Source of the DNA: Candidatus Woesearchaeota archaeon
Lineage (GTDB): Archaea > Nanobdellota > Nanobdellia > Woesearchaeales > GW2011-AR4
Direction of reading: 5' to 3'
DNA length: 40,910 nucleotides
NCBI GenBank assembly: GCA_018303185.1
Contig: JAGVYR010000067.1
Location: 1-40,910 of the forward strand
The notes under the pieces were generated by a model, which was not told the DNA's origin, made no database searches, and was given only the letters and a program-made list of their open reading frames with translations. Shown here piece after piece: positions 20,741 through 22,024 of this stretch. The translations under genes were made by a program, and so were the position numbers. The first letter of the stretch is position 1. The number at the start of each line of letters is the position of its first letter.

Positions 20741-20965
20741 TTACTTTAATTTCTCAAATTCCTCTGCAGTCAATTTGGCATCTTTAATAATTCTTAACAA
20801 TGTTCCTTTCTTCATTTCATCATGGAGCGGAACAGTCAGTTTGATGATTTTTTCGCCGTCAAATTTTTCCAGCCTAACATGGGAGCCTTTTTGCCTCGTT
20901 GCAATAAAGCCTACTCTCTTTAGCCTCCTTATAACATCAATTCCAGAAATCACTGGAAGCTTCAT
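20741..20965 (-). CDS. hicA: HicA family mRNA interferase toxin
   Basis: The 74-residue protein has the HicA double-stranded-RNA-binding-like fold: ISGIDVIRRLKRVGFIATRQKGSHVRL, with the catalytic His in GSH, then KLTVPLHDEMKKGTLLRIIKDAKLT. HicA cleaves mRNA when it is not bound by HicB. The gene overlaps the end of hicB by four nt (ATGA) and has no promoter of its own. The length is typical. Confidence 0.92.
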   Translation of the reverse strand: MKLPVISGIDVIRRLKRVGFIATRQKGSHVRLEKFDGEKIIKLTVPLHDEMKKGTLLRIIKDAKLTAEEFEKLK

Positions 20966-21162
20966 ACTGATACCTTGACCTGCTCCCCTTTAAACTCAAT
21001 GAGATCGTTTGTATCCGGCTCTAAATACAGCTCTACAGCTTCCTTTATGTTGTTCAATGCTTCTTCCTTTGTTTCCCCTTGGGAGGTACAGCCCGGCAAA
21101 GATGGCACATAAACCGCAAAGCCGCCCTCTTCCTGAGGCTCTAATATCACGGTCAATTTCAT
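20962..21162 (-). CDS. hicB: HicB family antitoxin
   Basis: The 66-residue protein shows the partial RNase H-like HicB core: LTVILEPQEEGGFAVYVPSLPGCTSQGETKEEALNNIKEAVELYLE. There is no added DNA-binding domain after it, so repression may need another factor or the HicAB complex. An open extension of 20 codons upstream is rejected because the TATA box (CTTATATTTAAAG region, 21184-21196) lies 28 bp before this ATG. Antitoxin precedes toxin on the minus strand, between tRNA-Tyr and tRNA-Asp. Confidence 0.92.
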   Translation of the reverse strand: MKLTVILEPQEEGGFAVYVPSLPGCTSQGETKEEALNNIKEAVELYLEPDTNDLIEFKGEQVKVSV

Positions 21163-21222
21163 CTTATACCTTAAATTGGCTTGCTTATATTTAAAGATGC
21201 TGTTTTTGCCTACTACTCTCAA

Positions 21223-21470: not shown

Positions 21471-21609
21471 GCCCTGGTAGTGTAGCCTGGCATGGCACCC
21501 ACTAAAAGGGTGCTGCAGCAACTATCACGCAGCCCTGTCACGGCTGCGACCCGGGTTCAAAACAGCTGGTTATAATCACAGCCAGGTGCTGAAAGTCCCG
21601 GCCAGGGCG
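21471..21609 (+). tRNA. tRNA-Asp(GTC) with two non-canonical introns
   Basis: The acceptor is GCCCTGG/CCAGGGC (21471-21477, 21602-21608) plus G21609. The anticodon arm is uninterrupted: CAGCC-CTGTCAC-GGCTG, anticodon 21537-21539. Intron 1 is about 21499-21528 (30 nt) at 25/26, with central helix ATGG/CTAT and identical CAC bulges on both sides. Intron 2 is 21562-21595 (34 nt) at 59/60, with central helix TTCA/TGAA and bulges AAA and AGT cut AA^A and AG^T; its inner helix is imperfect. Removing both gives a regular cloverleaf with T-arm CCGGG-TTCAAAT-CCCGG. Confidence 0.88.
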
Positions 21610-21626
21610 TTTATTATCACGCTACC

Positions 21627-21759
21627 GGGCCGGTAGCTCAGCCTGGATCCCCGAAGAGGGCGATAGAGCACTGCACTTTTAGCAGGCACTGGTAAATCAG
21701 GATAAACCGAGATGCCGAAGGCAATGCAGTGGTCGCGAGTTCGAATCTCGTCCGGCCCA
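21627..21759 (+). tRNA. tRNA-Lys(TTT) with a 17-nt D-loop intron and a 42-nt canonical intron
   Basis: The acceptor is GGGCCGG/CCGGCCC (21627-21633, 21752-21758) plus A21759, and the T-arm is GCGAG-TTCGAAT-CTCGT. The D-loop is interrupted at 21647-21663. Central helix GCCT/GGGC and bulges GGA and GAT, cut GG^A and GA^T, leave AGCCTGGTA, a standard tRNA-Lys D-loop; the inner helix is very short. The anticodon stem CTGCA/TGCAG encloses CTTTTA with anticodon TTT (21678-21680). Intron 2 is 21682-21723, with central helix CTTT/AAGG, bulges TAG and CAA, and inner helix GGCA/TGCC. Confidence 0.9.
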
Positions 21760-21781: not shown

Positions 21782-22024
21782 ATGAAGAAAAAATTTTCAC
21801 TCGACAAGCATTCGCTCATACCGAAGCACTCAAAGCTCAGCGAGAAGGAGAAAAAGGAGCTTTTTGAAAAATACAGCATTTCTGAGAAGGAGCTTCCGAA
21901 GATGTCAAAGAATGACGCGGCCATCCAGGGCCTTGGAGCGGCGCCGGGAGACATAATCAGGATTACAAGGCAGAGCTATACTGCAGGGGAATCATTTTTT
22001 TACAGGGTTGTTACAAATGTATAA
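21782..22024 (+). CDS. rpoH: RNA polymerase subunit H (Rpb5-like)
   Basis: The 80-residue protein is the archaeal counterpart of the C-terminal domain of eukaryotic RPB5, located near the downstream DNA channel. It contains KHSLIPKHSKLSEKEKKELFEKY and the conserved GAAPGDIIRITRQS. It begins 22 nt after the end of tRNA-Lys, leaving no room for a separate promoter with normal spacing, so a joint transcript with the tRNAs is likely. Its end overlaps the next start by eight nt. Confidence 0.95.
   Translation: MKKKFSLDKHSLIPKHSKLSEKEKKELFEKYSISEKELPKMSKNDAAIQGLGAAPGDIIRITRQSYTAGESFFYRVVTNV

Follow-up and report, generated by a model that had tools for sequence, protein, structure and literature searches.

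A woesearchaeal tRNA-Asp gene with D-loop and T-loop introns, and an apparent expansion of relaxed tRNA introns in Woesearchaeales

Introduction

A short archaeal tRNA gene that is interrupted twice, both times outside the anticodon loop, raises the question of where its introns lie, whether a normal tRNA can be made from it, and which enzyme would remove them. The strict archaeal splicing motif carries helices on either side of its two bulges (bulge-helix-bulge, BHB; hBHBh'). The relaxed forms hBH and HBh' lose part of it, and the bulge-helix-loop lacks a bulge (PMC6379350). The gene described here lies in a contig of 40,910 nt (the window) from an assembly of 1.62 Mb in 76 contigs that is about 91% complete (G000). 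The host is a woesearchaeote of the order Woesearchaeales, judging from a search with the N-terminus of RpoB'': hits among named genomes are nearly all Candidatus Woesearchaeota or Nanoarchaeota, the best at 82-85% identity.

The tRNA-Asp gene and its neighbourhood

The gene and its parts, all on the forward strand, are as follows.

21471-21609, forward: tRNA-Asp(GUC) gene, a 139-nt precursor interrupted twice
21471-21491, forward: exon 1 (tRNA positions 1-20), GCCCTGGTAGTGTAGCCTGGC; its acceptor 5' strand pairs with exon 3
21492-21521, forward: intron 1, D-loop (20/20a), 30 nt, ATGGCACCCACTAAAAGGGTGCTGCAGCAA
21522-21561, forward: exon 2 (20a-59), with the 3' D-arm CTATCAC, the anticodon arm, the 5' strand of the T-stem and TTCAAA
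21562-21595, forward: intron 2, T-loop (59/60), 34 nt, ACAGCTGGTTATAATCACAGCCAGGTGCTGAAAG
21596-21609, forward: exon 3 (60-73), TCCCGGCCAGGGCG; pairs with the 5' strand of the T-stem and with the acceptor strand of exon 1

An earlier note, made from the sequence of the window, had proposed a tRNA-Asp with two introns and none in the anticodon loop between these same ends, and the boundaries, the anticodon, the intact anticodon arm and the relatives all agree with it. The ends of the gene read GCCCTGG...CCAGGGC-G, and the anticodon arm CAGCC-CTGTCAC-GGCTG with anticodon GUC is uninterrupted. An intron at 37/38, a site that is used in relatives, is absent from the intact loop CTGTCAC. Exon 1 is identical in relatives of the same family. 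Removal of both introns yields a product of 75 nt in which every stem is intact and which folds into a normal cloverleaf in agreement with intronless relatives. The D-loop and the T-loop, which come together at the elbow when the tRNA folds, contain one intron each.

Scans of the window with ARAGORN and the Rfam tRNA model found no tRNA, as expected, since these are bacterial or general models and the gene is interrupted; such misses are usual for breaks outside the anticodon loop. That general tRNA finders report nothing at the locus would also suit a decayed pseudogene, with the real tRNA-Asp hidden in the unassembled tenth of a genome of such completeness. This is hardly credible, given stems that are all intact once the introns are removed and relatives that share both the genomic neighbourhood and the intron sites. 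Matches to tRNA-Asp in the assembly were limited to pieces of the gene itself, and a second copy was not found in these contigs, which represent about 91% of the genome. The locus is thus read as a functional gene, which is followed downstream by two further features.

21627-21759, forward: tRNA-Lys(UUU), with two introns, one of about 17 nt in the D-loop and one in the anticodon loop at 37/38, read against the intronless tRNA-Lys at the same place in a relative (G003)
21782-22024, forward: rpoH (Rpb5 C-terminal domain; PF01191, E 3.5e-27), the first gene of the downstream RNA polymerase cluster

The order tRNA-Asp/tRNA-Lys/rpoH/rpoB'' is retained in other families of the order, and the locus is therefore old and probably under selection. 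Directly upstream of the tRNA genes and pointing away from them lies a HicA/HicB-type toxin-antitoxin pair (20741-21222, reverse strand; PF07927, E 3.8e-17; PF15919, E 1.5e-10).

Intron 2 in the T-loop

The exon to the left of intron 2 ends in GGGTTCAAA and, after 34 nt, restarts with TCCCGG. The motif consists of a central helix TTCA:TGAA with all four pairs formed and 3-nt bulges AA/A and AG/T; its outer helix is the 5-bp T-stem. An unconstrained RNA fold of the precursor yields exactly this motif (z = -3.4), and the site is common to 67 distinct tRNA-Asp genes including that of the window, 58 of which form 4/4 central pairs. This proportion (87% of the 67) falls to 3.6% when the introns are dinucleotide-shuffled; the helices of the motif are 97.7% paired in register and at most 71% when slid, and the fourth pair covaries by exchange of A-U and G-C. 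The 34-nt intron at 59/60, as first proposed, is thus exact, its motif being both recovered by the unconstrained fold and shared by relatives. Its exon-side helix is strong and its inner helix interrupted, so that it resembles HBh' and departs from strict hBHBh'. T-loop introns range from 13 to 131 nt in the 67 genes; a long inner helix is therefore dispensable.

Cuts at 56-58 instead would leave TTCAAGT as the T-loop. This candidate was rejected, as 59/60 has four central pairs and the T-stem, and as TTCAAGT is missing among intronless relatives, which carry TTCGAAT (21), TTCAAAT (8) or TTCGATT (2); the product of the 59/60 register is TTCAAAT.

Intron 1 in the D-loop

Intron 1 was less readily placed. 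Exhaustive enumeration of relaxed BHB motifs in the single gene returns dozens of candidates, and intron 1 was settled only with relatives. Its length of 30 nt was given correctly in the earlier note, its place at 25/26 was not. By comparison with relatives, intron 1 is a D-loop intron (21492-21521) that follows C20: exon GCCTGGC, then intron ATGGCACCC...GCAGCAA, then exon CTATCACG. This placement at 20/20a rests on the mature register of the relatives, the junction count, covariation and the profile score.

Intronless homologues read ...GGCCTATCATG... (GGC-CTATCA), e.g. L022, and in two of them (L033 and L163) this stretch starts with AGCCTGG as it does in the window gene. Relatives with or without a D intron carry CTATCA or a close variant ahead of position 26. 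The junction GG(C/A)-CTATCA occurs in 19 of 22 genes with a D intron; two further genes use a neighbouring register (L045 and L115, slightly shifted) and one (L124) has no solution under the rules given below.

In the D-loop register the inner helix has 8 bp (TGGCACCC:GGGTGCTG), and the central helix CCTG:CAGC forms three of its four pairs; the outer one is a C.C mismatch here, and in 11 of 18 genes it likewise fails to pair. The bulges are GC/A and AA/C. Of the earlier description of both introns, the 3-nt bulges hold throughout, and the 4-bp central helix holds for intron 2 (4/4) and fails for intron 1 (3/4). In 5000 shufflings of intron 1, none gave as good a motif, with its 8-bp inner helix, at this register. 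The rules for assigning registers among relatives required 3-nt bulges, central helices with at least 3/4 pairs and inner helices of at least 3 bp. Across 18 aligned junctions the motif is 91% paired, compared with 25-51% when slid; since registers were picked partly by pairing, these counts lean towards the model, whereas CTATCA, the anchor in the exon, does not rely on pairing. Two central pairs switch together in 5 of the 18 genes (CTG:CAG versus TCG:CGA; C-G/U-A and U-A/C-G), and the inner helix shows double changes at three of four pairs.

Placement at 25/26 (or at 22-25, with the same product) would give a mature D-arm GGCAUGGCAC-G, whose D-stem GUGU/GCAC is able to pair. At 25/26 itself one of four central pairs forms; slid to 24/25 there are four (ATGG:CTAT) with 3-nt bulges, yet a contiguous inner helix is lacking and the outer helix is all but absent. 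Scored against a profile of 33 intronless D-arms (own range 17.6-38.9 bits), the 25/26 product reaches 18.8 bits versus 32.5 for the D-loop register, i.e. other boundaries fit the gene better at this intron. Together with the CTATCA of the relatives, this makes placement at 25/26 very unlikely. The D-loop intron has a strong inner hairpin and no exon-side helix, and is thus hBH-like and not a strict hBHBh'. In the unconstrained precursor fold, exon bases 8-11 pair with the 3' D-arm region, so that the D motif is not formed, and most of the intron hairpin is kept.

Introns across the lineage

The frequency of such introns was assessed in a non-random sample of 98 distinct tRNA-Asp genes from loci gathered among relatives. 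Three intron sites are used in tRNA-Asp of Woesearchaeales, with up to three introns per gene: the T-loop (67 genes), the anticodon loop at 37/38 (39) and the D-loop (22). By combination, 21 genes have no intron, 26 a T-loop intron only, 23 anticodon-loop and T-loop introns, nine all three, six an anticodon-loop intron only, three a D-loop intron only, and one D-loop and anticodon-loop introns. Nine genes combine D-loop and T-loop introns without a canonical one. This pairing had been called uncommon, which holds for archaea generally but not for the gene's own lineage.

Three-intron tRNA-Asp genes are seen e.g. in L061 (G030), L063 (G031), L137 and L124. A tRNA-Asp in G086 (L042) has a T-loop intron of 13 nt with little space for an inner helix, and is a candidate for a minimal bulge-helix-loop.

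Among 166 genomes of the order, 67 matched an exact pattern for T-loop introns (GGGTTCAAA, 5-35 nt, TGAAAGTCCC), against 6 among 113 genomes from the rest of the class (split counted by hand), often with several matches per genome; the reversed pattern, used as control, had zero matches. A looser pattern marks three T-loop intron sites in the host genome, where most of the 20 tRNAs found with Rfam carry introns as read by eye.

Further interrupted tRNAs of the host include a tRNA-Ala(UGC) with introns at 37/38 and at 59/60 in the T-loop (L014, 568 to about 681, C64), for which the Rfam match stops inside the second intron. Two tRNA-Arg and one tRNA-Met (L016, L017, L018) have, by eye, apparent introns in the D-loop or D-arm.

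On these comparisons, the window gene is nothing unusual within a lineage rich in tRNA introns. A paper describing tRNA introns in Woesearchaeota was not found in the open literature, subscription papers lying outside the search; the sole paper found in which 'Woesearchaeota' and 'tRNA introns' occur together deals with group I introns. For the lineage, this appears to be an undescribed expansion: a large order in which tRNA introns recur at three sites.

A model for splicing

Very probably, the locus is a functional single-copy tRNA-Asp(GUC) gene whose two short introns are removed by the protein splicing route of EndA and RtcB. The tRNA endonuclease EndA would cut the precursor at BHB-like motifs, and RtcB would join the exons. 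At the T-loop site, UUCR from the conserved exon pairs with YGAA near the 3' end of the intron, and the T-stem serves as outer helix (relaxed HBh'). In the D-loop, exon positions 16-18 (15-18 in another delimitation) pair with the 3' end of the intron, which itself supplies the hairpin, there being no exon-side helix (relaxed hBH). Half of each motif is exon sequence common to many tRNAs, which would permit introns to be gained at the same site in many of them; this may be why introns recur at the D-loop and T-loop sites and have spread in the order. The sequences show the gene, the places and motifs of its introns, their conservation and that EndA and RtcB are encoded; that the precursor is cut and joined, in what order, and that introns were gained is inferred.

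Splicing endonuclease and ligase

The host genome encodes one RtcB (PF01139, E 5.1e-171) and one EndA of about 200 aa with N and C domains (C19; PF01974, E 5.7e-27; PF02778, E 1e-16). In a search of 99 genomes with PF01974 (E<=0.1), 91 gave a match, in 87 of them to a single gene and in the remaining four to fragments or apparent duplicates; the open frames mostly comprise about 180-220 codons. In the host genome PF02778 matched one gene even at E<=10. A second EndA subunit was not found with these two profiles, which a very divergent one could escape. By alignment, the woesearchaeal enzyme keeps the Tyr, His and Lys of the catalytic triad (FRVYDRG, EDHARW, VAHSTKK). It fits the alpha4-type gene layout, namely one gene with N and C domains and a second subunit not detected.

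In several archaea, broad specificity has been ascribed to an insertion near the active site, the CSL or ASL loop, which carries a lysine. Relaxed introns are described as removed efficiently only by alpha-beta and epsilon2 enzymes by means of such loops, alpha4 and alpha'2 enzymes being strict (PMC4090602, PMC6379350, PMC12397907). Korarchaeum, named as the sole alpha2 archaeon with non-canonical introns, has the loop as well (PMC4033280). In the woesearchaeal EndA, a CSL/ASL-like insertion of 11-18 residues is absent by alignment. The corresponding segment, RFG-ELPEDGKVN-LSL, has roughly the same short length as its counterparts in M. jannaschii and native A. fulgidus; those of ARMAN-2 and 3p1y are longer. 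The latter, a longer A. fulgidus-like chain, is taken here to be a loop-grafted variant. A K or R is conserved in the woesearchaeal loop (DG[KR]V).

On balance, we lean towards a reading in which one gene, for an alpha4-like EndA devoid of crenarchaeal and ARMAN loops, suffices for Woesearchaeales to clear their abundant relaxed introns of the D-loop and T-loop, be they of the hBH, HBh' or 13-15-nt bulge-helix-loop type. This combination of enzyme and introns does not conform to the loop rule, save if a second subunit escaped detection or the enzyme owes its breadth to something else. A two-subunit or otherwise broad endonuclease, its second subunit escaping the profiles, would make the enzyme ordinary and leave the introns as they are. 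The best solved relative, 3iey_A (E 2.7e-39; 1a79, the M. jannaschii alpha4 EndA, follows at E 2.2e-29), is the alpha subunit of the two-subunit Nanoarchaeum equitans enzyme, and a single-sequence search that starts from the woesearchaeal EndA misses crenarchaeal beta subunits; both points speak for it. Against it, the woesearchaeal enzyme matches 3iey_B, the N. equitans beta chain (E 1e-10), so a beta subunit of that type should have shown, and one gene was the rule in the genomes with a match. A two-subunit or otherwise broad enzyme is hence considered rather unlikely.

Comparison with known systems

In Thermoproteales (Pyrobaculum and others), too, BHB-like introns occur at sites other than 37/38, with as many as three in a gene and EndA presumed to remove them (PMC4033280, PMC8450103, PMC3218864). 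These archaea belong to another phylum and use alpha-beta endonucleases with the crenarchaeal loop, in contrast to the single alpha-type gene without it. The Asgard Atabeyarchaeia and Freyarchaeia, a lineage unrelated to Woesearchaeales, are described as having most tRNAs interrupted, many by non-canonical introns and many by several (PMC11291895). Within DPANN, the micrarchaeote ARMAN-2 removes relaxed introns with its own epsilon2 enzyme (PMC12397907, PMC4033280), a three-unit fusion of about 395 aa with an ARMAN-specific loop, whereas the woesearchaeal protein has about 200 aa and no loop. N. equitans, of the same broad group and source of the nearest solved subunit, combines a two-subunit EndA with split tRNAs, as opposed to cis introns and one EndA gene. 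The alpha4 EndA of Methanocaldococcus jannaschii comes close in form, with a single catalytic subunit of about 180 aa, N and C domains and a comparable loop length, but the literature characterises enzymes of the alpha4/alpha'2 type as restricted to canonical BHB introns (PMC4090602, PMC6379350).

Significance

For the tRNA-Asp gene itself the outcome is a corrected intron position; the main interest lies in the lineage pattern and the loop-less single-gene EndA. Intron-rich tRNAs drop out of annotation, so that such archaea can look deficient in tRNAs; the non-canonical intron models of tRNAscan-SE 2.0 were built from Crenarchaeota, Euryarchaeota and Thaumarchaeota (PMC8450103). The very short introns of 13-15 nt would represent minimal substrates, and one small protein together with one 139-nt RNA would allow a direct test of what makes a splicing endonuclease broad in specificity. 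If true, the reading of a loop-less EndA that clears relaxed introns would break the accepted link of enzyme architecture, loop and intron type.
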